Of a DNA stretch of 64,000 bases, positions 3,160 to 46,011 are shown one piece after another. The translations under genes and the position numbers were made by a program. This stretch comes from Geomonas sp. RF6 (GTDB taxonomy: Bacteria; Desulfobacterota; Desulfuromonadia; Geobacterales; Geobacteraceae), in the NCBI RefSeq assembly GCF_021044625.1, contig NZ_CP087999.1, positions 1,629,001-1,693,000 on the forward strand. The letters are read 5' to 3'. Positions within the stretch are counted from its first letter, which is position 1; each line of letters opens with the position of its first letter. The notes under the pieces were generated by a model that searched no databases, was not told where the DNA came from, and saw nothing but the letters and a program-made list of their open reading frames with translations.

Positions 3160-3687
3160 GGGAAGGATCCTCCTCGGCAGCGAGAGAAGCCGTACCGGTG
3201 CTGCCTCTATTAAGTATAAGCGGGGCGGGTGTTTGGAGCAATTTTGTGTTACGGGGAGGGGAGTTGCGGGGGCGAGCGGGGCGATACCTCCCTCTCTAAA
3301 GGAGCGATTGGTATATGGCAGGGAGCCTGAGGCATGGGCCCCGATTCTGCCCCCCTGCAGGAAGGAAGGCCCGGTAAAGATTCACATTCTTTTATTATTG
3401 ATTTTTTTCATTATGTCTGCTTTCATAGCCGCGCGGCCTTCCCTGTTACTTTTTTTAACATCGTGTACGGAAAAACCGGATCACCGGGCCTCCCCCCGCT
3501 GTCATTTTTTTTAACATCGGCGTACCCCCCTCCGGGAATCCGGTGTTAATTTTTTTACCGCTCCCTCCGGCCACTCCCCAGTGGAAGAGGTGGAGCGCCC
3601 CGAGCGGTCCGACAGGCAGCCGTAAAGTAGCGTGCTTTTCCGGCACCTTCCGGCGACACCCCGCTCTTTGCTGCACCATTCCTTTCC
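3160..3687. other. Intergenic region with repeated TTTTTTAACA tracts (module A 3443-3586)
   Basis: No credible gene. Holds TGTTAC-T7-AACATCG (3445-3463), TGTCA-T8-AACATCG (3500-3519) and TGTTAAT-T6-ACCG (3544-3560), followed by CCACTccccAGTGG (3571-3584). A closely similar arrangement is found at 11124-11222 on the other side of the 3.7-11.1 kb block. The role is unknown; regulator sites, UP-like elements or an element end are all possible. Confidence 0.6.
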
Positions 3688-3703
3688 AGGCAAGCTTCTT
3701 GCT
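3688..3703 (+). promoter_or_regulatory. Possible sigma-54 (-24/-12) promoter before the response regulator
   Basis: AGGCAAGCTTCTTGCT has GG and GC with the strict 10-nt spacing, a perfect TTGCT at -12 and a -24 box differing from TGGCACG at two positions. Transcription would start about 15-20 nt before the start codon at 3730, leaving a very short leader that carries the AGGAGG ribosome site. The downstream gene is itself a sigma-54 activator. By-eye match only. Confidence 0.35.
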
Positions 3704-3729: not shown

Positions 3730-5169
3730 ATGACCGACCTGCAGAGACCCGGCCAGTTGCCGGCAGTCCTTTTCGTGGACGACGATGCCGATTTCCTGAA
3801 CGAAATCCGCTTCGTCCTCCTTTCAAACAAGCTTTGCAACGTCGTGACCCTCACAGACAGCAGCAAGGTCCTCTCCGAACTGGAGTCGGCCCCATATTCC
3901 ATCGTCTTCATGGACTGGATCATGCCGGGGCTTTCCGGCGCCGATCTTCTTCCGGTTATTACCCAGCGCTTCCCCAGCCTCCCGGTAATCATCATGACCG
4001 GTGTGAACGACGTCGATACGGCGGTCACCTGCATGAAGCAGGGGGCGCTCGACTACGTGACGAAGCCGCTCGATTCCTCAAGACTTTTGTCGTGCATCAA
4101 CAGCGCCCTCCGGATCACGGAGCTCTCCGCCCAGAACCGCCTCCTTCAGAACTACCTGATGGGAGAGCCTGTCGTCTGTCCCGGCACCTTCAGCGAAATC
4201 CTCTCCAGAAGCGAAAAGATGCAGGCGATCTTCAAGCTCATCGAGACGATCGCCCCCTCCCGCTACCCTGTCATCATCACAGGGGAAACGGGTGTCGGAA
4301 AGGAGCTCATCGCCCGCGCGGTGCACAAGGCCAGCGGCCTCACCGGGAGCTTCGTGCCGCTGAACGTGGCTGGGCTCTCGGCCCACATGTTCGAGGATAC
4401 GTTGTTCGGTCACAACAAGGGGGCTTTCACCGGAGCAAACGAAAGGCGCGACGGGCTCGTGAAGAAGGCGCAGGGGGGGACCCTCTTCCTGGACGAGATC
4501 GGGGACCTTTCGCTGGAGAGCCAGATCAAGCTATTGCGGCTCCTCCAGGAGAACGAGTACTACCGGCTCGGCTCGGACGTCCTTTTGAAGAACGAGGCCC
4601 GCATCATCGTGGCGTCGAACGGCGACTTCAGCAAGATGATGGAGCAGGGGAGCTTCCGGGAGGACCTGTACCACCGCCTCTGCTACCACCGGCTGCACAT
4701 CCCGCCCCTCAGGGAACGGCGGGAGGACATCTTGCCGCTGGTGACCCACTACGTGGAGGCGGCTGCGCGCAACATTGGGAAGCACCCGCCGCGCATCTCC
4801 TCGGAGCTTCGTTTCATCCTCGAGGCGTACGATTACCCCGGGAACGTGCGGGAACTGATCAACAAGGTGAGCAGCGCCGTGGTGGCGAACCAGACCGGGA
4901 TCCTCACCCAGAACGATTTTCCGGAGGTTATCGTAAAGGAGCGCGCCGTGAACGACCTGACCCAGAAGCCGGGGAACGGCCAGTTCAACCTGCACGTGGT
5001 ATTCCCCACCTTCCCCTCCATGGAGGAGGTGGAGATGGTCATGCTCGAGGAGGCGCTGAAGGCTACCGGCGGGAAGAAAAGCGCGGCTGCAGACCTTCTG
5101 GGGGTATGCCGCCAGACGGTGCAGAAAAAACTCGCCGAGATGGAGAGAAGGCATCAGGCTCGGGCGTGA
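3730..5169 (+). CDS. NtrC-family sigma-54-dependent response regulator
   Basis: 479 aa. An N-terminal receiver domain (about 10-125) has the acidic pair D17/D18, phosphoacceptor D62 in the context VFMDWIMPG, and the conserved Lys in YVTKPL. The central AAA+ domain (about 150-385) has Walker A GETGVGKE (185-192), GAFTGA (231-236, the sigma-54 contact loop), GGTLFLDEIGDL and the arginine-finger region FREDLYHRL. The C-terminal Fis-type HTH (about 430-475) contains KSAAADLLGVCRQTVQKKL. It should activate transcription from -24/-12 promoters when phosphorylated. AGGAGG sits 10 nt before ATG. The stop is only 8 bp from the stop of the convergent histidine kinase, its likely partner (inference from position). 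Confidence 0.93.
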   Translation: MTDLQRPGQLPAVLFVDDDADFLNEIRFVLLSNKLCNVVTLTDSSKVLSELESAPYSIVFMDWIMPGLSGADLLPVITQRFPSLPVIIMTGVNDVDTAVTCMKQGALDYVTKPLDSSRLLSCINSALRITELSAQNRLLQNYLMGEPVVCPGTFSEILSRSEKMQAIFKLIETIAPSRYPVIITGETGVGKELIARAVHKASGLTGSFVPLNVAGLSAHMFEDTLFGHNKGAFTGANERRDGLVKKAQGGTLFLDEIGDLSLESQIKLLRLLQENEYYRLGSDVLLKNEARIIVASNGDFSKMMEQGSFREDLYHRLCYHRLHIPPLRERREDILPLVTHYVEAAARNIGKHPPRISSELRFILEAYDYPGNVRELINKVSSAVVANQTGILTQNDFPEVIVKERAVNDLTQKPGNGQFNLHVVFPTFPSMEEVEMVMLEEALKATGGKKSAAADLLGVCRQTVQKKLAEMERRHQARA

Positions 5170-5176
5170 CGCCTGA

Positions 5177-6790
5177 TCAGATGGTGGGTGGTGTGAGCGG
5201 GGGTGACGGCGACGTCACCCCCTGCTGCTTTGCAGGGATGCGCACGAGGACCGTCGTCCCCTTGCCGACTTGCGAGTCGAACTCCAGCGAGCCGTGGTGC
5301 TCCGTAATGATGAAATTCGATATATAGAGTCCGAGCCCGCTCCCCCCCTTCTCGATCCTGGTGGAAAAGAAAGGCTCGATCAGCTGTCCCAGGTGCTCGG
5401 GGTCGATCCCCACGCCGTCGTCCGCCACCGCGACCTTCACCATCCCCTTTTCCTTTTCATACTCCGCCGAGATGGAGACCTGCCCGCGTTTCCCTTCCGG
5501 TATGGCCTGCATCCCGTTCAGGAGGAGGTTTATGACGACCTGCTCGAGCTGGTGCCGGTTTCCCACCACCAGCGGGAGCTCCGGCTGCACGCTGTTGAGC
5601 ATGGCGATGTTGCCGTAGCGCCCGTGGGCCCGGATGATCGCCATGGCGTCCGCGATGACCTGGGAGATGCTGACGTCACTTCGCAGCTCGCTGCGCTCGC
5701 CGGCGTTGAAGTCCCTGAGGTCCTTGATGACCTGCCCGATCCGCTCGCTGGAGCGGCTCACCACCTCGATGGCGGTGAGGAATTCCTCGCGCACCACGCT
5801 GTAGATCCCCCCCCCAAGGACGAAATCCCCTTCCTCCCGGGCCACCCCGTCGAGTATGGGAAGCGCGCTCTTCCACCCCTTGGCGAGCTGCTGCGCCGCG
5901 AGCTTTATCGCGCCGTTCGGCGTGTTGATCTCGTGCGCCATGCTGGAGACGAGGAGCCCGAGAGAGGTCATCCGGTTCGTCTGGATCAGCTTCGCCATCA
6001 TCTTTTTGCGCTCTTCGCTCATCTCCCGCTTCATGGAGTTGATGAGCTCCTGCTGCAGGCCGCGGTTCTCCTCCTCCCGGCGCAGGAGGGCGGCAGCGAG
6101 CTCGTTCACCGCGTCGGCCGCGTCCCCCACTTCGTCGCTGTCCACCGATCCTATCCGGTGCCGGTAGTCACCCGCACGCAGCGCACGCAGCCCCCCGATG
6201 AGGCAGGTGAGGGAGCGGGTGATGCGCTGCACCACGAGGTAGCTGACGGCTGTGGCCGCAACCCAGAATAGGAGCGCGGTGACAAGCGAGGTGAGGACCA
6301 TGGAGCGGATCAGGAGGGTCAGCTCCTTCTTGTCCATCACCACCTCGACCCGCCCGACCGGCTTTTCGTTGCTCCCCGCGCCGAGGAGGTAACGGCCGGA
6401 GTTCCCGGAGAGGCCGGGGGTGACGAGCGCCGAACCGGAGAGGGAGTTCTCCATCATTTGCGCGGGCTCCTCTCCCGCCTCTGCCATAACCTTCCCGTCT
6501 GCGTTCATGATGGTGACGCGCTTCACCCCGGGGTGTCGGGCGTACTCCGAGGCGAGCTGGGCAAGGGTGACCCTGTCTTCACTAAAGAGGGGGAGACGGA
6601 CGGAAGCGGCGAGCATGGTGGCTAAGAGCTGCGATTTTTCTCCGGTGTGCAGCCGGTACGACTGCACCTGCCGCACCATGTAGATCCCGGTGAAGGTCGC
6701 GGAAATCACGGCGGTGAACGCGGCGAAGATGATGAAGAGCCGGGTTCGGAAGTTCCACGGGAACTTCCGGCTGCGAGTCACCGCCCCCAT
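5177..6790 (-). CDS. Membrane sensor histidine kinase
   Basis: 537 aa. First membrane helix at about residues 15-38, a periplasmic sensing region to about 175, a second helix near 180-205, then HAMP (about 205-260) and a coiled coil. The phosphoacceptor H286 lies in SSMAHEINTPNG. The ATPase domain shows the N-box VVINLLLNGMQA, G1 VADDGVGID and G2 GGSGLGLYISN. The start codon overlaps the stop of the upstream binding-protein gene (TGATG), so the two are translationally coupled. It ends 8 bp from the convergent NtrC-type regulator. A perfect 9-bp GC-rich inverted repeat (5199-5207/5214-5222) lies in its last codons and could slow transcription from either side. The periplasmic sensing domain was not assigned to a family. 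Confidence 0.92.
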   Translation of the reverse strand: MGAVTRSRKFPWNFRTRLFIIFAAFTAVISATFTGIYMVRQVQSYRLHTGEKSQLLATMLAASVRLPLFSEDRVTLAQLASEYARHPGVKRVTIMNADGKVMAEAGEEPAQMMENSLSGSALVTPGLSGNSGRYLLGAGSNEKPVGRVEVVMDKKELTLLIRSMVLTSLVTALLFWVAATAVSYLVVQRITRSLTCLIGGLRALRAGDYRHRIGSVDSDEVGDAADAVNELAAALLRREEENRGLQQELINSMKREMSEERKKMMAKLIQTNRMTSLGLLVSSMAHEINTPNGAIKLAAQQLAKGWKSALPILDGVAREEGDFVLGGGIYSVVREEFLTAIEVVSRSSERIGQVIKDLRDFNAGERSELRSDVSISQVIADAMAIIRAHGRYGNIAMLNSVQPELPLVVGNRHQLEQVVINLLLNGMQAIPEGKRGQVSISAEYEKEKGMVKVAVADDGVGIDPEHLGQLIEPFFSTRIEKGGSGLGLYISNFIITEHHGSLEFDSQVGKGTTVLVRIPAKQQGVTSPSPPLTPPTI

Positions 6791-7671
6791 CAGAAGTTGG
6801 CCTGGCGCGAAGGCGCCTCGTAGAAGATGCCAAGGTGCTTCAGCACCCCCTGGTTTACCTTCAGGATGCTCTTTGCCGGCGACAGCAGCGGGTATTCGTG
6901 TACCGGCCTCCCGGCGAGGAGGTCCGCAGCCATCTCCGCAGCCTGGCGCCCCATCTCCTCCCGGTCCGCCTCGATGACCGCCGCCGCGCCGAGCTGCAGG
7001 TGCGAGCGGTCAAAGGAGATCACCGGGATCTTCTCAGCCAGGGAGAAGAGGAAGTAGGCTTCCGCAGATTTGTGGTCCACCGCCGAGGCATCCGGAATCA
7101 TCCAGATCGCATCGACGCTCCCCTTCAGGCTGGCGAGCGCCCCGAGGGCGTCCTTCGGCGAGTTCACCACCCTCGTCACGATCTCGATCCCCGAACGAGC
7201 GGCGGACTGCTGCACCTTCCTCATGTAGATCCCGCTGCGGGCGGGGTTGTACAGCACCCCCACCCGTCGGACGTTCATTCCCTCGAAAAGGGGGAAGTGG
7301 CGCTCAGGCCTTACGAACAGCTCCACCCCCGTGACGTTCGAGGATGAGCCGTAGAGTCTTGAGAAGCTCAGCGACATGAGAGAAATGACCGGCAAATGGC
7401 GCGCACGTTTGGCGGCCGCGAGAGCGCGGTCCCCGACAGCGACGATGACTGAAGGCTTATCCTCCCTGATCACCCGTGCCAGGTCCGCCTCCTGGTAATC
7501 GGAAAGGACGATGGTGCGGTGGGAGAAATCCCTGCCGCGCCGGAAGGCGCTCGCCGCCTCCGTATAGACCGGGTCCCTCGTGCTCAGGAGCAAAAGGACC
7601 TGGTACGCCTCGGCGACGCACGGCAGGATGAGGAAAAGGACAGCTATGCAGAGGAGAAGGAGTCTTCTCAA
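6790..7671 (-). CDS. Periplasmic ABC-type substrate-binding protein (PF04392-like), no permease nearby
   Basis: About 293 aa with a clear Sec signal peptide (LRRLLLLCIAVLFL then CVAEA|Y). Features of the ABC_sub_bind family seen in the body: VIVAVGDRALAAAKR, PVISL, the SNVTGV segment, RVGVLYNP and VDAIWMIPD, the pattern of a Leu/Ile/Val-type periplasmic fold. The start is ambiguous. The TTG at 7671 overlaps the TonB receptor stop (TTGA) and has GAGGTG six nt upstream; a GTG at 7680 is also in frame. No ABC permease or ATPase is encoded near it. Its tight coupling to receptor and kinase suggests that it delivers a ligand signal to the kinase rather than feeding a transporter (inference). Confidence 0.85.
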   Translation of the reverse strand: MRRLLLLCIAVLFLILPCVAEAYQVLLLLSTRDPVYTEAASAFRRGRDFSHRTIVLSDYQEADLARVIREDKPSVIVAVGDRALAAAKRARHLPVISLMSLSFSRLYGSSSNVTGVELFVRPERHFPLFEGMNVRRVGVLYNPARSGIYMRKVQQSAARSGIEIVTRVVNSPKDALGALASLKGSVDAIWMIPDASAVDHKSAEAYFLFSLAEKIPVISFDRSHLQLGAAAVIEADREEMGRQAAEMAADLLAGRPVHEYPLLSPAKSILKVNQGVLKHLGIFYEAPSRQANF

Positions 7672-9524
7672 AACCGCCACCTCACGCCCCCCTCGAGCCA
7701 CCTCCGGGGGTTCTTGAACTGGTCCGTCAGGTATTGGTCTCCATCGAAGACGTTGTGCAGGGTGACGAAAAAGTGGGGCATCAAGTCCCCGCGCCCCCAA
7801 GGCGTTGCCGTCAGCGTCCCGTCCCATACCATCGCGCCGTACCTGCCGTTCAGGTCCGACTGGAGGTCGGCCATACGCCCGGTAACGGCCACGTCGAGGA
7901 TGCGACCGTCATCGTAGCGCGCTCCGAGAAGGAGGAGGTGCCGGGGGCGGTTCGGGATGACGCTGTCATCCGAGGTGCGACGGGCGTCGATGAAGGTGTA
8001 GCCGAGGAAAAAGGAGGTATGGAAGAAGGGAGCGGTACGCACCTCGGTCTCTACCCCCTCCTTTACCTGGTGCTGCGTGGAGAGATCATCAAGCAGCGCG
8101 TCGAGCTCGTTGTGGAAGAGAGTTGCCTTGAGCCACAGGTGGGGAATGGCGCTCGTCTCCACCCCCACCTGGGCCGTCCATACCTTTTCTACAGAGTCGA
8201 GGGCAAGAGAGGGAAGGCTGTACCCTTTGGCGACGTAGCTCCGGACCGTGGTCTGCTCGTTTACCTGCCACGTCGCGCCGAAAGACGGGCTCCACTGGTT
8301 CCCGGCATTCCCCGTTATGTCGTAGCGGATGCCGGGTGAGATGGAGAAAGGACCGAAGGCGAAGCTGTCGTTGAGGTAGAAGCCCCAGCGGTTTTCCCCC
8401 TTGTCCACGCGTTCCCCGTCACGCAGAAAGCTCACCGAGTCCTTGTCCAGATCGACGCCGGCAACAAGGGTGTTGTTGCTGGTATGCAGCAGAAGCTGGA
8501 CGCTGCCGCCGCTGATCTTCTCGTCCCAGTCCAGGGTGCTGCGAAATACGGTGTCGGGGTAAAGAACAGGAAGGGTTGCCTCGCTGGAGATCCGGTTGTC
8601 GTTGCTCGAGTGCCTGGCTGTCAGCTGGAGATCGAGGTATTCGGTCAGGGGCTTGGTGGCGGAGAGAACAAAGGTCAGGCGGCGCCCCCAGCTGTCCTCC
8701 TTCGCAGTGATGTCAGGTTGATCTATGGCGAAATTCCCGCGGTTTACCTCCGTGTAGCCGAAAGAGAAGAGGGCCCTTCCACCGCCGGGAAATTCGTAGC
8801 TGAGCTTTTGGTAGGCATTCCTGAGCCTCTCGTTGGTATTGGGCTGGAAGCCGCCGGTGCCGAAATAGCCGCCGGAGAGGTAATAGCCGAAGTTTCCTGC
8901 AGTGCCGGAGATCTCTCCGCTGTCGTCATTGGTATTGTGCTCACCGTGGGAGGCAGAGATCGTCCCCGAGAGCTTCCGATCCGGCTCCGGTGACTTGGTG
9001 ACTATGTTGATGATGCCTCCCAGGGCAGGCCCCCAGCTGGAGGAGGCAGCACCTTTGGAGACCTCGATCCTTTCGACGATGCGCGCAGGAATGAGGCCGA
9101 GATCGGGGAAGTTCGACATCAGGTTGTTCCACGGTATGCCGTCGAAAAGCACGAGGACGTGGTTGTAGTCGGCCCCTTGGACGGTGATGCTCACGACGCT
9201 CGCCGGTCCGGTCTGGAGATCGACCTGGATCCCGGGAATCAGCTTGAGAATGTCACTTACGGTATGGGCGTTATGAGCCTCTATCTCCTCTGCGCTTATG
9301 ACGGATACGTTCTCGGCAGTCCTCGAGACGGGCCTGCTGAATCTCCCGGTGGCGATCGTGTCAGCATCTGAGCTGCCCAAGACAGAGAGCGTCTCCTCTT
9401 CCAGTTCTTCACCTCTCAGGCCGGGAGGGGAGAGACAGAAAAAGAGGAGGCAAGTCACCAGCAGGACGCTGAGAGTGTGGAGTCGTGGCCTATGTCTTTC
9501 GATATGTCTCAGGGTAAACCTCAC
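7668..9524 (-). CDS. TonB-dependent outer-membrane receptor
   Basis: About 618 aa from the GTG at 9524. Signal peptide LHTLSVLLVTCLLFFCL, a possible TonB box ETLSVLG just after the mature start, plug domain (GRFSRPVSRTAENVSVIS, DILKLIPGIQV, VLVLFDGIPW, RIEVSKGAASSSWG, GGIINIVTK), then about 22 antiparallel strands ending in Phe (VRWRF), typical of the barrel. The frame stays open up to 9800, but that extension crosses the divergent promoter region and the 9630-9737 peptide gene, so the GTG start is preferred although its ribosome site is weak. First gene of an operon with the binding protein and the kinase. The ligand (siderophore, corrinoid, peptide) cannot be read from sequence. Confidence 0.9.
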   Translation of the reverse strand: MRFTLRHIERHRPRLHTLSVLLVTCLLFFCLSPPGLRGEELEEETLSVLGSSDADTIATGRFSRPVSRTAENVSVISAEEIEAHNAHTVSDILKLIPGIQVDLQTGPASVVSITVQGADYNHVLVLFDGIPWNNLMSNFPDLGLIPARIVERIEVSKGAASSSWGPALGGIINIVTKSPEPDRKLSGTISASHGEHNTNDDSGEISGTAGNFGYYLSGGYFGTGGFQPNTNERLRNAYQKLSYEFPGGGRALFSFGYTEVNRGNFAIDQPDITAKEDSWGRRLTFVLSATKPLTEYLDLQLTARHSSNDNRISSEATLPVLYPDTVFRSTLDWDEKISGGSVQLLLHTSNNTLVAGVDLDKDSVSFLRDGERVDKGENRWGFYLNDSFAFGPFSISPGIRYDITGNAGNQWSPSFGATWQVNEQTTVRSYVAKGYSLPSLALDSVEKVWTAQVGVETSAIPHLWLKATLFHNELDALLDDLSTQHQVKEGVETEVRTAPFFHTSFFLGYTFIDARRTSDDSVIPNRPRHLLLLGARYDDGRILDVAVTGRMADLQSDLNGRYGAMVWDGTLTATPWGRGDLMPHFFVTLHNVFDGDQYLTDQFKNPRRWLEGGVRWRF

Positions 9525-9548
9525 GGATATATTTTTTTTAATTTTTAG

Positions 9549-9577
9549 TTGTATTTCATTTGAACTTACTCTATAAC
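9549..9577 (+). promoter_or_regulatory. Sigma-70-like promoter for the small peptide / maturase pair
   Basis: TTGTAT (9549-9554), a 17-nt spacer and TATAAC (9572-9577), inside a conspicuously AT-rich 100-bp divergent region between the TonB receptor start and the peptide start. It would give a leader of about 45 nt ending in AAGGAGGTGAG before the ATG at 9630. By-eye prediction. Confidence 0.4.
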
Positions 9578-9629
9578 CTAAAGCAGATTTAGAGTCCAGC
9601 ACTTTCACACTCAGAAGGAGGTGAGACGC

Positions 9630-9737
9630 ATGTTGACAGAAATCTTGGAAATTCATGATGAAGGAACCTGCCCGGCGGCGGTATCCCCGCAATTTACCTG
9701 CTGCTACCTTGCGTACATGGGCGTCGTACAGCGCTGA
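9630..9737 (+). CDS. Candidate RiPP precursor peptide (geopeptide-like, 35 aa)
   Basis: ATG at 9630 is preceded by a near-perfect ribosome site AAGGAGGTGAG (9616-9626). The product has 35 residues. The N-terminal half is acidic (MLTEILEIHDEGT) and leader-like; the C-terminal half carries Cys14, Cys24 and Cys25 with aromatic residues (QFTCCYLAYMG). The next gene on the same strand is a radical SAM/SPASM enzyme 80 bp downstream. Short Cys-bearing peptides directly before such enzymes are the pattern of ribosomally made, post-translationally modified peptides, and a Geobacter family is known as geopeptide with its maturase. I recognise the arrangement, not the exact peptide sequence. The ORF is too short for ordinary gene calling; coding status is inferred from ribosome site and context. 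Confidence 0.7.
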   Translation: MLTEILEIHDEGTCPAAVSPQFTCCYLAYMGVVQR

Positions 9738-9746
9738 GAACTTCGG

Positions 9747-9772
9747 GCGGGGGGCCACATCTGCCCCCCCGC
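9747..9772 (+). terminator. GC-rich hairpin between peptide and maturase genes
   Basis: GCGGGGGG (9747-9754) and CCCCCCGC (9765-9772) form an 8-bp all-GC stem with a 10-nt loop, 9 nt after the peptide stop. There is no T-run, so it is more likely a partial attenuator or mRNA-stabilising hairpin that would keep peptide output above maturase output, as is common in RiPP operons (inference). Confidence 0.5.
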
Positions 9773-9817
9773 TTGCCTGCCCACCCGCCTTACTTCCCAC
9801 CCCAAGGGGTATCTACA

Positions 9818-11113
9818 ATGAAAGCATTGGCACCCTCGTGCTACCTGAAGTCCTACCCCTCCGCGCAGGGGGACAAAGTCCTTCTCTACTCCACGCTGCA
9901 CGGCTCAAAGCTTACCGTTTCCAAAAGCCTCGCCGAAGCCATCACGAGCGGCACTGTGCCTGAGGCCCATGTCGAGACGCTCCAGCGCCTGGGGATCCTG
10001 GTGCCGGACCGGGAGCGCGAGCGCCAGCAGATGATGGAGCTTTTGCAGGAGCTTGACCGGCGCAACACCCTCTTCTGCGCGGTTGTCACCCTGAACCTCG
10101 ACTGCAACCTCGCCTGCAGCTATTGCTACGAGTCCCCCTTCCGTTGCAGCAGCTACATGACGGAGGAGACTGCAGACCTTGTGGTGCAGGCCCTTCTGAA
10201 TCATCCCCTTGCCGCTTCACGGGATCTGAGGGTCGAGTTCTATGGCGGTGAGGCGCTCCTATCGGTGCCCCTGATGCGCAGGATCTCGACGCAGCTCAAA
10301 TCAGCGGTCGAGGCACGGGGAAAGGCCTACTCCTTCAGCATCGTCACCAACGGCACACTCCTCAACCGGCGCACGGTGGAGGAACTCCTCCCCCTCGGCC
10401 TGAGCAGTGCCAAAGTCACCCTGGACGGTCCCCCCCGGATTCACGACCAGCAGCGTCCCTTCACCTCCGGAAGGGGGAGCTTCGCGGCCATCCTGGCGAA
10501 CCTGAAGGAGATCTGCGCCCTCCTTCCCATTCAGCTCGGGGGGAACTTCAGCCAGGAAAAGTACCGCGAGTTTCCGGAGCTCCTTGACATCCTCGTCCAA
10601 GAGGGGATTTCCCCCGAGTCCATCGCAGCTGTACAGTTCACAGCCATCGCCCCCAAAGCAGACGAGGCGGGACTGCCCGAGTTCACCGCCGGTTGCGCCT
10701 GTTCAAGCGAGCCGTGGCTAATGGAGGCATCCCTCTATCTGCGGGAAGAGACGCTGAAGCGCGGTTTCAGGGTGCAGAAACCGAAGCTCTCGGCATGCAT
10801 GGTGGAATCGGAAAACAACATGGTGATAGGGTATGACGGCGGGATCTACAAATGCCCGGCATTCATGGGATGGCAGGACCTGCGCATCGGGACGTTGACG
10901 GAAGGGGTACAGGAGTATGCGGAGTCTCACGGTGTGGGAGCCTGGAAGCAGGAGGAATGTCTCGACTGCGCGTACCTCCCTATCTGCTTCGGCGGCTGCA
11001 AGTACCTGCAACGGCTCAATACCGGCTCGGTAGCGGGGGTCGATTGCCGCAAGGAGCTCCTCGACGCCACCTTGGAGAAGACGTTGCGGCAGGACCTGGC
11101 TGCAGGGCGGTAG
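9818..11113 (+). CDS. Radical SAM/SPASM peptide maturase (geopeptide-maturase-like)
   Basis: 431 aa. Radical SAM cluster motif C96-X3-C100-X2-C103 (CNLACSYCYE), followed by VEFYGGEALL (GGE motif) and SIVTNGTLL. The C-terminal SPASM region has many cysteines: C327, C346 (GIYKCPAFMG) and the set ECLDCAYLPICFGGCKY with a late VDCRKEL, enough for two auxiliary 4Fe-4S clusters. The N-terminal ~90 residues (LKSYPSAQGDKVLLYSTLHG) resemble the peptide-recognition region of such maturases. Such enzymes install thioether or related crosslinks in a precursor; here the 35-aa peptide just upstream is the obvious substrate. The ATG at 9818 with AAGGGG upstream is chosen over an in-frame ATG at 9773 that lies in the intergenic hairpin. 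Confidence 0.88.
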   Translation: MKALAPSCYLKSYPSAQGDKVLLYSTLHGSKLTVSKSLAEAITSGTVPEAHVETLQRLGILVPDRERERQQMMELLQELDRRNTLFCAVVTLNLDCNLACSYCYESPFRCSSYMTEETADLVVQALLNHPLAASRDLRVEFYGGEALLSVPLMRRISTQLKSAVEARGKAYSFSIVTNGTLLNRRTVEELLPLGLSSAKVTLDGPPRIHDQQRPFTSGRGSFAAILANLKEICALLPIQLGGNFSQEKYREFPELLDILVQEGISPESIAAVQFTAIAPKADEAGLPEFTAGCACSSEPWLMEASLYLREETLKRGFRVQKPKLSACMVESENNMVIGYDGGIYKCPAFMGWQDLRIGTLTEGVQEYAESHGVGAWKQEECLDCAYLPICFGGCKYLQRLNTGSVAGVDCRKELLDATLEKTLRQDLAAGR

Positions 11114-11525
11114 ACAGGTCAGTTTGTCACCTTTTTTAACAGCGGCCTTCGCCGGGGCTGGCTTTTCCGCGGCTCCTGTTAATATTTTTACCGGCCAACC
11201 GGCAGCAATTCCGCAGTGGAATCCGCCACCTGGCACCACGTGTTGCTTTTCTTAACCCTCCGTCCCCGCATTTGGCACCATACGGGCGTCGGCAGCAGGC
11301 GCCCCGCCCCTGCCCGAAGAGTCCTCTTTCCTTTTCTGATCAATCCAGCCACAAATCGTGAGCGGCTGTATACCACCGTCAGCACAGAGCAATCGCCGAC
11401 CAGGTCACCGGGGTTAAGTCTCAGGCGACGCTGAGCCCGGCTCTGCCTCCCCCGTTCTGGCATCATTCTTGTTATCTCCGACCCTGGCTCATCGCGAAGA
11501 CGTCCCGCTGCCCAGGAGAAGAAGA
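11114..11525. other. Intergenic region with module B (11124-11222)
   Basis: No credible gene. TGTCAC-CT6-AACA (11125-11141), TGTTAATATTTTTACCG (11177-11193) and TTCCGCAGTGGAA (11209-11221) repeat the layout seen at 3500-3586. Two TGGCACCA boxes follow at about 11230 and 11276. The remainder is featureless to me up to the ribosome site AGGAGAAGAAGA before 11526. Confidence 0.55.
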
Positions 11526-11813
11526 ATGGTCTTTTTCAAGTACAGGAACCTGATTCACCAGCTGGATCACCAGGCTTTCGACCGGCTTCTTCAGCCGGGG
11601 GATACAACACTCTATTCCGGGATCTATCGCTGCGAGGTATGCGGCTACGAGATCGTCTCCACAAAAGGTGATTCGATGCCGCCGGAACACCATCATAAGC
11701 ACACCCTGGCGCAGGGGCCGATCAGCTGGCGCCTCATCGTGCGCACCATCCAGAAAAACCCGGACGTGGCAAGAGATAGGGAGTCGCGAAACCGCGGGTA
11801 CCTGGAAAGGTAA
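11526..11813 (+). CDS. Small zinc-ribbon-like hypothetical protein (95 aa)
   Basis: Starts MVFFKYRNLIHQLD at an ATG preceded by AGGAGAAGAAGA. Contains GIYRCEVCGYEIVSTKGDSMPPEHHHKH: one CxxC knuckle followed by an H-rich stretch that could complete a metal site. This resembles the one-knuckle 'G.Y.C..CG.E.....G...PPC' zinc-ribbon proteins of Gram-negative bacteria, with the second Cys pair replaced by His (inference). An in-frame upstream start at 11469 lacks a ribosome site. Follows the RiPP maturase by about 410 bp, so probably a separate transcript. Function unknown. Confidence 0.65.
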   Translation: MVFFKYRNLIHQLDHQAFDRLLQPGDTTLYSGIYRCEVCGYEIVSTKGDSMPPEHHHKHTLAQGPISWRLIVRTIQKNPDVARDRESRNRGYLER

Positions 11814-13799: not shown

Positions 13800-15698
13800 A
13801 TGAATAGCAAGCTGCTGAAGGAAGCTATCTTTGGCAAACGCCTGAGAACCGAGGAGGAGGAGACCGAGCAGCTTTCAACGATGCCGGCGATCCCGGTGGT
13901 GGGGCTCGACGCCCTCGCCTCGGCGGCTTACGGTCCGGAAGCGGCACTGACGGTCCTCATTGTGCTGGGCAACGTCGGATCAAGATACATCACCCCCATC
14001 GTAGGGTGCATAATCGTTCTCCTCACCCTTGTGGCCCTCTCCTACCGGCAGACCATCCCGGCCTACCCGCAGGGGGGCGGGTCGTACACGGTAGCTTCCC
14101 AGAACCTCGGCACCCTCCCCGGTCTTCTCGCCGGGACCGCCCTCTGCATCGACTACATTCTCAATGTTGCCGTCGCGACCTCGGCAGGTGTCGCGGCCCT
14201 TGTTTCCGCCGTCCCGCGTCTTCTGCCGTACACGCTGCCACTGTGCCTCGGGCTGCTCCTTTTCCTCATCGTGGTGAACCTGCGCGGGGTCCGCTCCGCC
14301 GGCATTCTCTTCCTCGTCCCTACCTACCTCTTTATCGGCTGCCTCGCCGTCACGGTCGCCATCGGCCTGTACAACGTCGTGGCGACGCATGGGCACCCCG
14401 TCCCGGTGCGCCCTCCCCCTGTCGTGCCGGTCTCGGTGCACAGCGCAGGTGCCTGGCTTTTGCTGCGCGCCTTCGCCAGCGGGTGCACAGCATTGACCGG
14501 GGTGGAAGCCGTCAGCGACGCGGTCCCCATTTTCCGGGAGCCGCGCACCGTGCGGGCGAAGCGGACCCTCACCGTCATCATGGCGGTACTCGCCTTTCTC
14601 CTGGCGGGGATTGCCATTCTTGCGCACTACTACGGCATAACCGCGACCTCTCCGGGGCAGTCGGGGTACCAGAGCGTCCTTTCCCAGATCATTGGAGCCG
14701 TTGCCGGGCGCGGCGCCTTCTACTACCTGGCGATCTCCTCCATCCTCGCCGTCCTCCTTCTTTCCGCCAATACGAGTTTCGCCGACTTTCCCCGCGTCTG
14801 CCGCCTCCTCGCCCTCGACACTTTTCTCCCCGCCGAGTTCGCGCACCGGGGGCGGCGCCTCGTCTTCTCCGCCGGCATAATCGTCCTCGGCATTTTTTCC
14901 GCACTTCTTCTGGTCGCCTTCGGCGGGGTCACCGACAGGTTGATCCCCCTCTTTGCCGTGGGGGCTTTCACCGCATTCACCCTGTCGCAACTCGGTATGG
15001 TCTTCCACTGGAAGCGCTCCGAGGAGAAAAACGCCAGGCACCGGATGATTCTGAATGGCATAGGCGCCGTGACCACGGGAGTGACTCTCATCGTCATAGC
15101 GGTCGCGAAATTCGCAGAAGGAGCCTGGCTCACCATCATCGTCATGCCCCTCCTGCTCGTCGTCTTTCTGCGCATACGGCGATACCACGAATCGATCGAG
15201 CAGAAGCTGGAAGAGGTCGACGGGCCGCTGGAGCTCGAAGACATCCCCGCGCCGATCATGGTCGTGCCGCTGAAAAGGCTGAACAGGGTAACGAGAAAGG
15301 CGATCCGGGTGGGGCTCTCCTTCGGCCTCAATGTCTTCGCCGTCCAGGTTGTGGCCGAGGAAGCAAACATGGAGGACCTGACAGAGCGGTGGCGAGCCCT
15401 CGTGGAGGAGCCGGCGCGCCAGGCAGGACAGCCGGTCCCGAAGCTCGTCGTGGTGAGTTCCCCCTACCGGGAGTTCTTCGGCCCCCTTTCCCACCAGGTG
15501 AAGGTGCTGTCCGAGCACTACCCCGACCGGCAGGTGGCGGTGATCATTCCGGAGCTGGTGGAGAAGCGGTGGTACAACTTCCTCTTCCGGCACCGTGCGA
15601 CCCTCCTGAGGGAACTCATCCTCCTGCGCGGAGGGCCGCAGATTCTGATCATCACGGTGCCGTGGTACGTCGGGAAGAAGGACAAGTTCGAGGGGTAG
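13800..15698 (+). CDS. kimA: KimA-like potassium importer (APC superfamily permease)
   Basis: 632 aa, about 12 membrane helices in the first 450 residues, then a cytoplasmic domain of about 150 residues. It matches the Bacillus KimA (YdaO) pattern throughout: ALASAAYGPEA, LSYRQTIPAYPQGGGSY, YILNVAVATSAGVAALVSA, SGCTALTGVEAVSDAVP, LLSANTSFADFPR, FAVGAFTAFTLSQ.GM, and in the tail VVPLKRLNRVTRKAIR and EKRWYNFLFRH. KimA is a K+/H+ symporter controlled by c-di-AMP in Firmicutes. Whether this relative moves K+ or an amino acid is inference. ATG preceded by GAGGAGGTGCG. It follows a 400-bp region with no sensible c-di-AMP riboswitch to my eye. Confidence 0.82.
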   Translation: MNSKLLKEAIFGKRLRTEEEETEQLSTMPAIPVVGLDALASAAYGPEAALTVLIVLGNVGSRYITPIVGCIIVLLTLVALSYRQTIPAYPQGGGSYTVASQNLGTLPGLLAGTALCIDYILNVAVATSAGVAALVSAVPRLLPYTLPLCLGLLLFLIVVNLRGVRSAGILFLVPTYLFIGCLAVTVAIGLYNVVATHGHPVPVRPPPVVPVSVHSAGAWLLLRAFASGCTALTGVEAVSDAVPIFREPRTVRAKRTLTVIMAVLAFLLAGIAILAHYYGITATSPGQSGYQSVLSQIIGAVAGRGAFYYLAISSILAVLLLSANTSFADFPRVCRLLALDTFLPAEFAHRGRRLVFSAGIIVLGIFSALLLVAFGGVTDRLIPLFAVGAFTAFTLSQLGMVFHWKRSEEKNARHRMILNGIGAVTTGVTLIVIAVAKFAEGAWLTIIVMPLLLVVFLRIRRYHESIEQKLEEVDGPLELEDIPAPIMVVPLKRLNRVTRKAIRVGLSFGLNVFAVQVVAEEANMEDLTERWRALVEEPARQAGQPVPKLVVVSSPYREFFGPLSHQVKVLSEHYPDRQVAVIIPELVEKRWYNFLFRHRATLLRELILLRGGPQILIITVPWYVGKKDKFEG

Positions 15699-15838
15699 CG
15701 GCAGCGCGTGCCCCTGGAGGTGGCATCGCAGGAGGTGCGATTGCATGGAAGTCGTGCATTGTCGCTTTTTTATGAGATATTTGTGAAGTTACGCCGTCGC
15801 GTAGCAGAATGAAGACAGACGGAGCGAAGGAGGGAAAA

Positions 15839-17059
15839 ATGAAGGGAAAGAGAGCATGCTTTGCAGTCACAGTTGCAGCGATACTTTGTGCATCCCTTGC
15901 CATGGGCCAGTCACAGACGTTCCCCCAGGGAAGTGCGACTCCTTCCGAAAGTTGCGGAAAGTGCCACAGGGCGATCTACCGCGAGTTTGCCTTCGGTTTC
16001 GGTAGCGACATCCTCTTCAAGCCGACCACCATGCCGGGAAAGGAGGGGGATAAACTCTCACTCCCCGCCAACGTCTCCGGCACGGCGACGGCCCACGCGA
16101 TTGCCGGGGTCGACCCGTACCCGGTACATTCGCGCGAGGCTGAGGAGGGGGGGAAATCGTGCAACGTCTGCCACTATCCCGAGTCCTTTGCCATTCCCGA
16201 CATGGAAGCCCCGGAACTCTCCAAGCCGAAGGCGCGCCCGAAGGATAAAGAGGCGGGGGGGCTCACCTGCGCGAGCTGCCACCTGACGCCCGAAGGAAAG
16301 ATCCGGGGGGCGCATGTGGTGAAGGCACCGCACGATACCGTCGCCGATCCCGCAATCCATACCTCCGCCATGTGCGCCTACTGCCACGCCATGGGGAAGA
16401 GAGTGGTGGGGAAGCAGACGCAGACCTTTCTGGAGTGGCGCGAGGACTTCTACAAGCCGACCCTCGGCCTGCAGCAGTGCCAGGACTGCCACATGCCGCG
16501 CACCATGCGGAAGATCGCGGAGGAGTACGACAATCCGGAGCGCGCAGTGGCGCGCCATCTCTGGACCGGAGGGCGGTCGCAGCAGCGGCTGGCGAGTGCG
16601 CTCGGCCTCGTGGTGACGCAGCCCCTGGAGGGGAAGCCGAACCTCGCATTCCACGTCATCAACATCGGGGCGGGACACTCCGTTCCCACCGGCTCCAACA
16701 GGCGGGCGGTATACCTGAAGGTCGAAGTGACGGACAGGAAAGGGAAGCTCGTCGCAGGGAACGACTGGATGTTCGCGCCGTGGTACGGCGCGCGTCCGGA
16801 CGACAAGAAGTTCCTGGAGGAAGACAAGAAGCGTCCTGACGCGGTCGCCGCCATGCAGGCGGATGCGCAGGGGCCTCACGAGAGCACCATCCGTGCCGGC
16901 GAGGAGCGGACACTTCCCTGGACGCCGAAACTGAAGCCGGGAGAGTACACGGTGAAGGCGTGCCTCATCTACGACCTGAACCGGTACAATGCCCGCACCT
17001 TTACCGACGACCAGACGGAGATGAACAGTACGACCCTCACCGTGAGAGTCAGAAGATGA
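15839..17059 (+). CDS. Five-haem c-type cytochrome, exported
   Basis: 406 aa from the ATG at 15839, preceded by AAGGAGGGAAAA. Signal peptide CFAVTVAAILCASLAMG. Five CXXCH sites: CGKCH, CNVCH, CASCH, CAYCH and CQDCH, all in the first ~230 residues, in a layout like the cytochrome c554/hydroxylamine-oxidoreductase-related family. The C-terminal ~170 residues are haem-free and beta-rich (NLAFHVINIGAGHSVPTGSNRRA; GAGH.VPTG is typical of this extended group). Probably a periplasmic electron carrier or reductase. The in-frame ATG at 15809 lacks a ribosome site. A terminator follows at 17193-17223. Confidence 0.88.
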   Translation: MKGKRACFAVTVAAILCASLAMGQSQTFPQGSATPSESCGKCHRAIYREFAFGFGSDILFKPTTMPGKEGDKLSLPANVSGTATAHAIAGVDPYPVHSREAEEGGKSCNVCHYPESFAIPDMEAPELSKPKARPKDKEAGGLTCASCHLTPEGKIRGAHVVKAPHDTVADPAIHTSAMCAYCHAMGKRVVGKQTQTFLEWREDFYKPTLGLQQCQDCHMPRTMRKIAEEYDNPERAVARHLWTGGRSQQRLASALGLVVTQPLEGKPNLAFHVINIGAGHSVPTGSNRRAVYLKVEVTDRKGKLVAGNDWMFAPWYGARPDDKKFLEEDKKRPDAVAAMQADAQGPHESTIRAGEERTLPWTPKLKPGEYTVKACLIYDLNRYNARTFTDDQTEMNSTTLTVRVRR

Positions 17060-44846: not shown

Positions 44847-45377
44847 CTAATACCCACTGCCGCCGCCAGTTCCGCCTCCCATGCTGCCGCCAGAACTGCC
44901 GCCGCTTGTGCCGCCGGTGCTGCCACCGGTGCCGCTGCCGCTACTGGAGCCGCCGGTGTCGCCTGTGCTGCCGCCGGTGCCGCTGCCACTGCTGGAGCCG
45001 CCCATGTCGCCTGTGCTCCCGCCGGTGCCGCTGCCACTGCTGGAGCCGCCCATGTCACCTGTGCTGCCGCCTGTGCCGCTGCCACTGCTGGAGCCGTCCA
45101 TGTCGCCTGTGCTGCCGCCGGCGCCGCTGCCGCTGCTGGTCCCACTCGGGCTGGCACCCGCACCGCCACTGCTGGTACCGCTGGTGTCACTTATTGTGCC
45201 GCCAGCACCACTGCCGGTAGCACCACTCCCTCTGCTCGGACTGGACATCTCAGTGCTTCCGCCAGTTGCACTGCCACCGCTACCGCTCTTGTTCGCACAG
45301 CCTATTGTGCCAAAGGTAAGGGCCGAAACCGCAACGATCGCCAAAGTCCGGAACAACATTCTCTTCACACTTGCCAT
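44847..45377 (-). CDS. Gly/Ser-rich repeat lipoprotein (176 aa)
   Basis: ATG at 45377 preceded by GGGAGGAG. Signal MLFRTLAIVAVSALTFGTIGC gives a lipobox-like TIG|C. The mature part is almost only Gly, Ser, Thr and Asp, with four near-identical 16-residue repeats of the form STGDMGGSSSGSGTGG, encoded by 48-bp DNA repeats (about 44930-45140), then GGSSGGSMGGGTGGGSGY. Likely an unstructured envelope protein. The synonymous DNA repeat is near-exact, so copy number may vary between strains by slippage. An open frame on the opposite strand is a shadow of the repeat. Confidence 0.7.
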   Translation of the reverse strand: MASVKRMLFRTLAIVAVSALTFGTIGCANKSGSGGSATGGSTEMSSPSRGSGATGSGAGGTISDTSGTSSGGAGASPSGTSSGSGAGGSTGDMDGSSSGSGTGGSTGDMGGSSSGSGTGGSTGDMGGSSSGSGTGGSTGDTGGSSSGSGTGGSTGGTSGGSSGGSMGGGTGGGSGY

Positions 45378-45413
45378 AGCTAACTCCTCCCGTGTTGTTT
45401 GCTTCACCACATT

Positions 45414-45445
45414 ATTATATCGTGCTAATGTTAAAAAAATTAACA
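45414..45445 (-). promoter_or_regulatory. Promoter region with TATAAT and 17-bp TGTTAA/TTAACA palindrome-like tract
   Basis: On the minus strand TATAAT (45419-45414) lies about 37 nt before the Gly/Ser lipoprotein start. Ten base pairs further upstream is TGTTAATTTTTTTAACA (45445-45429), an AT inverted repeat almost identical to the tracts at 3544-3558 and 11177-11191. No good -35 box, suggesting that an activator may act there. Confidence 0.45.
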
Positions 45446-45516
45446 CGTCAGCTCAAAGAGCGCGGAAATACGGGTGAAAGGGGACGCTGCGTGTGCTTGC
45501 AGCGGGGCGATGATGG

Positions 45517-45584: not shown

Positions 45585-45737
45585 CTAAATGCAGCAGGTG
45601 CTTTCAGAGGCACAGCATGCGGAACTGGTGTTAGCGCAGCAGGGGCTGCCGGTTTTGGAGGCGAGGGCCATTGTTGCTGCTCCGATGGTTGTGGCGGCGA
45701 CAAGAGTGGCGACAAGAATGCGCAGGTGCTTTTTCAT
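45585..45737 (-). CDS. Tiny exported protein with three Cys-Cys pairs (50 aa)
   Basis: ATG at 45737 preceded by GGAGGATCACC. Signal peptide KHLRILVATLVAATTIGAATMALA|S. The mature peptide has only about 24 residues and holds three vicinal pairs: SPCCANTSSACCASESTCCI. Spacing between the pairs is 6 and 5 residues. It has its own terminator. No family recognised; metal binding in the envelope, a disulfide-rich peptide, or a modified peptide are options. The upstream in-frame ATG at 45782 lacks a ribosome site. Confidence 0.7.
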   Translation of the reverse strand: MKKHLRILVATLVAATTIGAATMALASKTGSPCCANTSSACCASESTCCI

Positions 45738-46011
45738 GGTGATCCTCCAGAATGGATTCAGTGGTATTGAGTCATCTGCCATCCATAATCCACATCCTGT
45801 GCCAAGACTTCCCTTTCCAGCTAAGCCGCCGGAAACGCTAGCATAAGCAAGAGAGATCCAGTTAAAGGCATCGGGGAATATTCTTTACTGCAGGAGGATT
45901 TTCTACACCTGGCGCCAGGAAGACGGGAACGCCGTACACCTTTAGGATGGCAACCCGTCTTGCGTAGACCTCTCCCTCGCCATGATGCCCTGACGCTTCC
46001 GGAAGAAAAAA

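Follow-up and report, generated by a model that had tools for sequence, protein, structure and literature searches.

Based on a comparative analysis of a 64,000-nucleotide stretch of DNA from Geomonas sp. RF6 (contig NZ_CP087999.1, positions 1,629,001 to 1,693,000; this whole stretch is referred to as the window), we propose a model in which a ribosomally synthesized and post-translationally modified peptide (RiPP) of the geopeptide type would be matured, exported, re-imported through a cognate TonB-dependent receptor and sensed in the periplasm. We place the probability of this autocrine, or self-recognition, circuit at about 0.6. A small cassette of this kind is carried by many soil and sediment bacteria, and the variable peptide end follows the receptor in its changes; the data thus suggest that these cells make, retrieve and sense a modified-peptide message of their own. 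On the plus strand of the window lie the 35-amino-acid (aa) geopeptide precursor MLTEILEIHDEGTCPAAVSPQFTCCYLAYMGVVQR (9630–9737), composed of a leader motif ending in EG, a spacer, a vicinal CC and the 10-aa tail YLAYMGVVQR, and the 431-aa geopeptide radical SAM/SPASM maturase (9818–11113, with its ATG at 9818; TIGR04280, TIGR04085, PF04055). The minus strand carries a 618-aa TonB-dependent outer-membrane receptor (7668–9524; GTG start; PF07715 Plug and PF00593 barrel), a lone periplasmic binding protein (SBP) of family PF04392 (6790–7680, starting at either GTG 7680 or TTG 7671) and a sensor histidine kinase with a periplasmic sensor region, HAMP, HisKA and HATPase domains (5177–6790). An NtrC-family response regulator with receiver, sigma-54 AAA+ and Fis helix-turn-helix domains is encoded at 3730–5169 on the plus strand.

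The end of the receptor gene overlaps the SBP start, and the SBP stop and the kinase ATG share one base; the three genes thus probably form a single translationally coupled operon. Its divergence from the peptide/maturase pair, described in an initial annotation of this DNA, was confirmed, with every part at or very near the position it had been assigned. The kinase and regulator genes do converge, although their stops are separated by 7 bases and not by 8 as first stated. The regulator, initially described as a sigma-54 activator, contains GAFTGA, the sigma-54 contact motif. A Pfam scan of the receptor returned Plug and barrel and no N-terminal signalling domain; the precursor has no match in NCBIfam or Pfam, and Rfam and tRNA scans gave no matches.

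The precursor tail changes in step with the receptor

L numbers denote fetched neighbourhoods; 125 maturases were counted in the 120 that were fetched and the window together. Upstream of 110 of them a short peptide was found (xLEVLDEG...CC followed by a tail); control searches scored 5/125 on the opposite strand of that 1 kb, 7/125 in the 1 kb downstream and 35/2,280 in background windows. Among the 15 misses, several show a peptide in another scan and others lie at contig ends. Only the leader G (G12), C24 and C25 are invariant in 32 aligned peptides, a CxC variant being aligned with a gap. Of 96 parsed peptides, 89 have a tail of 7–10 aa. Tail sequences are hypervariable: at 70–80% maturase identity, identity is 66% for the leaders and 30% for the first seven residues of the tail. 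Variability in the spacer is similar to that in the tail (mean identity 0.47 versus 0.39). Elsewhere in the window, a small protein (45585–45738, minus strand) has a signal-like N-terminus and three C-terminal CC pairs (...GSPCCANTSSACCASESTCCI), with no adjacent TIGR04280-type radical SAM gene.

Which partner follows the tail? A plain Mantel-type test gave partial correlations of the tail with the TonB receptor (0.24), the SBP (0.17) and the maturase (0.23), each at 0/500 permutations. Because this test leaves relatedness in, it was replaced by independent sister pairs. A single maturase above 400 bits, a receptor above 350 bits and a peptide were present at 102 loci, 97 of which also had an SBP; after exclusion of L043 (misparsed) and L139 (no CC), 42 pairs were left, with each locus used once and maturase identity of at least 60%. 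Given maturase and SBP identity, the partial correlation between tail and receptor is 0.576 (0/10,000 permutations); it is 0.526 without L046 (2/10,000) and 0.587 in a rank version (0/5,000), and neither BLOSUM scoring nor inclusion of the kinase sensor (28 pairs) changes the result. The tail tracks neither the SBP (-0.08) nor the maturase (-0.20), nor, in the 28 pairs, the kinase sensor. The receptor is tracked by neither leader (-0.13) nor spacer (0.10), the segments that lie between tail and receptor gene in divergent layouts, and the leader tracks the maturase (0.45, 3/5,000). When pairs are confined to at least 70% maturase identity (n = 28), the tail–receptor value is 0.584 (2/10,000), or 0.487 without L046 (34/10,000), and the tail–SBP value 0.19 (1,624/10,000). 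Both receptor domains correlate with the tail: the plug at 0.31 (92/5,000) and the barrel at 0.48 (4/5,000).

Individual loci illustrate the pattern. L046 shares 83–88% maturase and 83–91% SBP identity with L048, L057 and L074, while its receptor is 56–57% and its tail 0–11% identical to theirs; compared with L048, the receptor N-terminus (82–85%) and leader plus CC (18 of 24 residues) are kept, and barrel and tail differ. Likewise, L121 and L095/L112 are 81–82% identical in maturase, 66–69% in SBP, 41% in receptor and 12% in tail. As in a peptide pherotype, the variable region covaries with the receptor and the processing signal does not, a pattern to be expected if the receptor recognises the tail directly. 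The initial annotation had suggested that the peptide could be sensed back through receptor, SBP and kinase; the covariation, which it had not foreseen, backs the re-uptake step, whereas sensing by SBP and kinase is a step that we continue to infer.

Receptor, binding protein and kinase accompany the maturase

Linkage was counted at the 76 maturases flanked on each side by 7.5 kb or more, using profile thresholds of 60 bits for receptor, kinase and regulator and 40 bits for the SBP. Within 9 kb of the maturase, a TonB receptor is present at 76/76, an SBP at 75/76, a kinase at 72/76 and a response regulator at 52/76; all four occur together at 51/76, a strongly positive outcome for the neighbourhood that the initial annotation had singled out. 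Since generic kinases might inflate these figures, a stricter recount was run, and it returned 74/76 for the receptor (350 bits, 3 kb), 75/76 for the SBP (90 bits, 6 kb), 61/76 for the kinase (200 bits, 8 kb), 42/76 for the regulator (400 bits) and 39/76 for all four. The sensor region of the window-type kinase is detected at 62 of the 76 loci, including some whose kinase has a different core and a fused receiver. Many loci without a sigma-54 regulator have a hybrid kinase with a C-terminal receiver, whose N-terminal sensor region matches the window kinase better than its core does. The separate sigma-54 regulator first described is present in the window but is not universal. Beyond the five core families, none occurs in more than 20 of 121 neighbourhoods (by greedy open reading frame calls, which rare or short genes escape). 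No inner-membrane importer, ABC permease or ATPase family recurs near the cassette in this set, which fits periplasmic sensing.

The set is also found outside the order. At 22 geopeptide-type maturases there, a TonB receptor is present in 22, an SBP in 19 and a kinase match in 16, with several misses at contig ends; most of them again show a CC peptide that shares the leader motif, and the gene order differs, receptor, peptide and maturase often being co-directional. Across genera and families the flanks change, and the set is retained in varying orders and orientations. Flanks are syntenic too within genus g7, and the conserved downstream neighbours of families f6, f7, f9, f43 and f97 reflect local synteny of genes that, judged by eye, look ordinary. 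The reverse question was asked of 24 SBPs above 300 bits in 15 finished genomes: 19 adjoin a maturase (one truncated) and five do not. More distant SBPs (~114 bits and less) occur as well, L162 with receptor and kinases. Peptide/maturase pairs consistently lacking TonB and kinase genes, which would have pointed to chance adjacency, were not seen among the 125, while the converse arrangement exists in a minority of 5/24. The receptor/SBP/kinase trio is therefore tied to the peptide in most, not all, cases.

Two variations on the cassette deserve mention. An extra TonB plus SBP pair stands beside it in L127, L145, L090, L113 and L122, as if further tails were receivable. A divergent subtype (L083, L103, L109, L110, L114, L116, L130, L134 and L137) has two hybrid-type kinases or a kinase and a hybrid, distant SBPs, a receptor downstream of the maturase and tails like VASLIPLM.

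Maturase family and its spread

The maturase exceeds the TIGR04280 cut-off of 400 with 619.7 bits over positions 4–426 of 428, the runner-up NCBIfam model reaching 156 bits of 525, and its SPASM domain scores 52 bits with TIGR04085 (cut-off 27). C95, C99 and C102 (CxxxCxxC) and the C-terminal cysteines are invariant across 38 maturase sequences. The protein thus has the features of a radical SAM/SPASM RiPP maturase: CxxxCxxC, a SPASM domain and an adjacent short Cys precursor with a conserved leader. It misses the cut-off of the PapB (ranthipeptide/sactipeptide) equivalog at 132 of 340 bits and also stays far under those of the other equivalogs among the best 25 of 69 matches listed. Among the matches listed, 101 of 141 genomes of the order pass the TIGR04280 cut-off; 12 of 14 control genomes match the model, every one under it. 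A close maturase is present in 35 of 395 genomes sampled across the phylum, 27 of them outside the order. Named carriers of the maturase include Geomonas, Citrifermentans bremense, Geotalea and Geobacter argillaceus. The 22 maturases considered above (those over 450 bits) come from 20 fetched places and four named metagenome-assembled genome (MAG) loci: 18 belong to other families of the phylum and four to MAGs labelled Pseudomonadota (two), Nitrospirae and Nitrospinota, labels that may be wrong. L263 and L264, remote maturase relatives of ~300 bits without the full set, were excluded from the 22, and eight over-cut-off maturase places in the order and eleven places outside it were left out. 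Four neighbourhoods hold two maturases (L040 in G051, L034 in G122, L068 in G124 and L143 in G023); the peptides of the paired maturases differ in L040, L068 and L143, and L040 has one receptor set for both.

Binding protein and kinase as a putative sensor

The SBP matches PF04392 (ABC_sub_bind) at 79.4 bits against a gathering score of 25.9, and its predicted structure (pLDDT 94.7) has a type I fold. The nearest solved folds are 6hnj (TM 0.76/0.74) and 3lkv (E 4.5e-18), from the TrpX/CD0873 group, and profile matches are 3lkv, 6hni and 3lft; the TrpX equivalog cut-off is missed at 49.3 of 390 bits. According to an excerpt of PMC6816091, CD0873 binds tyrosine, VC_1101 phenylalanine and SP1069 tryptophan, and an excerpt of PMC10805632 places single-domain relatives of this binding-protein family near chemoreceptor genes. 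The kinase sensor region was modelled at moderate confidence (pLDDT 78) and resembles, with modest scores, extracellular PAS/Cache-type domains such as those of WalK, LapD-type proteins and CitA. A type I SBP next to a kinase with a predicted periplasmic sensor domain, the latter at this moderate confidence, would correspond to a LuxPQ-like pair. The lack of covariation between SBP and tail suggests that the SBP reads either a part of the product that does not vary or a fragment from its breakdown. By analogy with known sensor logic and from the structure of the operon, SBP and kinase may together sense the peptide.

Promoters and candidate operators

Between receptor and peptide, the sequence defines a divergent control region (9525–9629). 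It contains no sigma-54-like site at the set threshold, and none is clearly enriched there across 44 loci. A sigma-54-like promoter, CAGGCAAGCTTCTTGCT, lies before the regulator (3687–3703, plus strand; consensus match only). Upstream of the regulator there are also three TGTTA-N7-TAACA palindromes (3444–3560, plus strand; 0, 1 and 2 mismatches), a candidate operator, and three more (11125–11257, plus strand; 1, 2 and 2 mismatches) begin 12 bp past the maturase stop as another. Four loci of another family (L046, L048, L057 and L074) likewise have three copies after the maturase, and L041 has two before the regulator. The strict palindrome has eight sites in the genome, the pattern having been derived from the sites themselves. 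In the window, palindromes at up to two mismatches are not significant (8 versus 4.4 expected; 9 of 100 shuffles reach 8), and genome-wide the one-mismatch form is no commoner than a reversed control (18 versus 19 per strand); the other genome sites show no cluster and no shared gene type. A regulon defined by this operator was rejected, as the counts are weak and only the clustering is notable. We regard the sigma-54-like site and the palindrome clusters as leads.

Three other stretches of the window were recorded. A Gly/Ser-rich repeat protein (44847–45446, minus strand) has a perfect TGTTA-N7-TAACA at 45429–45445 overlapping its called start. A 95-aa protein (11526–11813, plus strand) shows weak, sub-cut-off matches to rubredoxin/desulfoferrodoxin-like zinc ribbons; upstream of it lie the second palindrome cluster and two loose sigma-54-like sites. 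At 13800–17059 on the plus strand, a protein resembling amino-acid permeases (AA_permease_2) precedes one resembling multihaem cytochromes c.

Alternative explanations

Several observations weigh against an autocrine circuit. The regulator is missing within 9 kb at 24 of the 76 loci and the kinase at four. At L106, the sole locus without a separate SBP, SBP and kinase share one open frame; it was dropped as proof of coupling, as its SBP part lacks ~44 C-terminal positions and may stem from a frameshift. No exporter or protease family recurs in the 121 neighbourhoods, where the best non-core family reaches at most 20, which leaves 'self-contained', as the circuit was initially called, unsupported. 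The five SBPs that do not adjoin a maturase are accompanied by a receptor and a kinase but by no detectable maturase or convincing peptide: one set (L157; G000:C1:4718500-4738000, locus 4679–10133) is a second TonB/SBP/kinase set in the window's own genome, the others (L158–L161) are in four g7 genomes, and all five are candidate receiver-only loci. Because of these loci, the trio can act without local synthesis. Across the 44 loci, sigma-54-like sites are mildly enriched before the regulator (0.57 versus 0.36 in shuffles) and hardly before the peptide (0.41 versus 0.27) or the receptor (0.59 versus 0.48); with such slight enrichment, feedback on the peptide is unsupported. Furthermore, fast-evolving receptor and tail might share unmodelled divergence, an objection weakened by the similarly variable spacer, which does not track the receptor. 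Lastly, the covariation is one of receptor with tail: it speaks to their association, not to import, nor to signalling as opposed to nutrient uptake.

What else might hold these genes together? The most serious contender, though in our estimate an unlikely one, is a RiPP metallophore or cofactor carrier, in which the CC peptide would bind a metal or carry a redox group, be re-imported and be passed to the SBP, the two-component system regulating uptake or synthesis by load, as with methanobactin. Vicinal thiols are plausible soft-metal ligands, and their presence in the peptide counts in favour of this role. Covariation of receptor and ligand would be equally expected of strain-specific metallophores. 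Moreover, the small RiPP precursor, the TonB receptor (putatively for the system's own product) and the lone periplasmic SBP parallel MbnA, MbnT and MbnE as portrayed in excerpts of PMC7558416 and PMC3621798. However, only G and CC are invariant, and no pattern of metal ligands is conserved in the tail that covaries with the receptor. Families of metal transporters or metalloregulators do not recur within ~9 kb, in a scan that misses infrequent or short genes, and the dedicated partner is a kinase, not an importer. Metal binding as such is compatible with all of these points. Signalling is favoured because of the dedicated kinase at most loci, the lack of a recurrent importer or metal gene, the constant CC with a free tail and the receiver-only loci.

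We consider it improbable that the product is an antagonistic, bacteriocin-like peptide, with the TonB receptor as its entry into competitors and the kinase sensing the toxins of relatives. Antibiotics do figure among radical SAM RiPPs (PMC8326336), and arms races can yield both hypervariable tails and receptor variation, but the matching receptor is encoded next to the peptide by the producer itself, and genes for immunity or export do not recur in the 121 neighbourhoods. That unrelated neighbours are held together by chance or by the synteny of shared ancestry is hardly credible. The syntenic flanks within g7 would fit such an origin, yet the set is kept where flanks differ across genera and families, its members stay together while order and orientation vary, and the tail tracks only the receptor. 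With linkage at 76 maturases in the order and 22 outside it, chance adjacency was rejected.

A model for peptide retrieval and sensing

In the autocrine model, the EG leader of the 35-aa precursor would be bound by the TIGR04280 maturase, which would modify the region of the invariant CC, with thioether-type cross-links as the likeliest chemistry. The leader would be cleaved and a short CC-tail product exported, presumably by housekeeping proteins. The cognate TonB receptor would then recognise the strain-specific tail, as the covariation supports, and carry the product to the periplasm. There, the product or its constant part may bind the lone PF04392 protein, which would act on the periplasmic domain of the kinase as LuxP does on LuxQ, a step for which the coupled operon, the co-occurrence of the genes and the fold of the SBP argue. 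Finally, the kinase would drive the sigma-54 regulator or, at other loci, its own fused receiver. More tentatively, at somewhat under even odds, the system may serve kin recognition in Gram-negative bacteria: each cassette's RiPP 'pherotype' would be admitted by a tail-matched TonB receptor, a generic SBP and kinase would read the constant part, and receiver-only loci would be eavesdroppers.

This logic echoes those of methanobactin uptake, LuxPQ sensing and pheromone pherotypes, and it differs from each. A radical SAM/SPASM maturase stands here in place of MbnB/MbnC, families not found among nine window proteins scanned with NCBIfam and Pfam; the SBP belongs to PF04392, in contrast to the OppA-like MbnE; and a kinase with a sigma-54 regulator, or a hybrid kinase, replaces the FecIR-type MbnI/MbnR. 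FecIRA-type signalling does not describe the locus, as the receptor has Plug and barrel only and its partners are a kinase and an NtrC-type regulator. In LuxPQ–LuxO, a type I periplasmic binding protein and a sensor kinase lead to a sigma-54-type regulator, an arrangement resembled by the type I fold SBP, sensor kinase and sigma-54-type regulator found here. Nevertheless, the putative signal is an encoded modified peptide and not a furanone, a dedicated TonB receptor is added, no LuxU-like phosphotransferase was identified, and the regulator scores far under the LuxO cut-off (278 of 800 bits). The TrpX/CD0873 proteins are nearest to the SBP in solved fold, but the SBP here has no recurrent neighbour of an ABC permease or ATPase family. 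In Gram-positive pheromone pherotypes, the processing signal is constant and a hypervariable region that sets specificity is matched by a cognate receptor; in the present case, a TonB protein of the outer membrane, and not the kinase, is the receptor that covaries.

What is new, and what would it mean? The maturase family already has a name: the enzyme is a member of TIGR04280, a hypothetical equivalog in NCBIfam that names the enzyme alone. The receptor/sensor set and the tail–receptor covariation appear to be new, since among the matches listed in the open-licence literature no paper on the geopeptide product or on this set was found. In an excerpt of a survey of RiPPs in anaerobes, Geobacter is named twice, each time for lasso peptides, and TonB is absent (PMC4289311). 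The natural tail/receptor switches, such as L046 versus L048, L057 and L074, are ready tests of specificity, and covariation of this kind is a general route to pairing orphan RiPPs with receptors from genome sequence. The role of the widespread TIGR04280 peptides becomes directly testable. To our knowledge, there is no earlier case of a RiPP recognised by a TonB receptor and then by an SBP and kinase, so that, if our model is correct, this would be the first to be read in that way. We know of no peptide signal in Geobacter-type metal-reducing bacteria, and the circuit proposed here would give them one that is genetically encoded and strain-specific.

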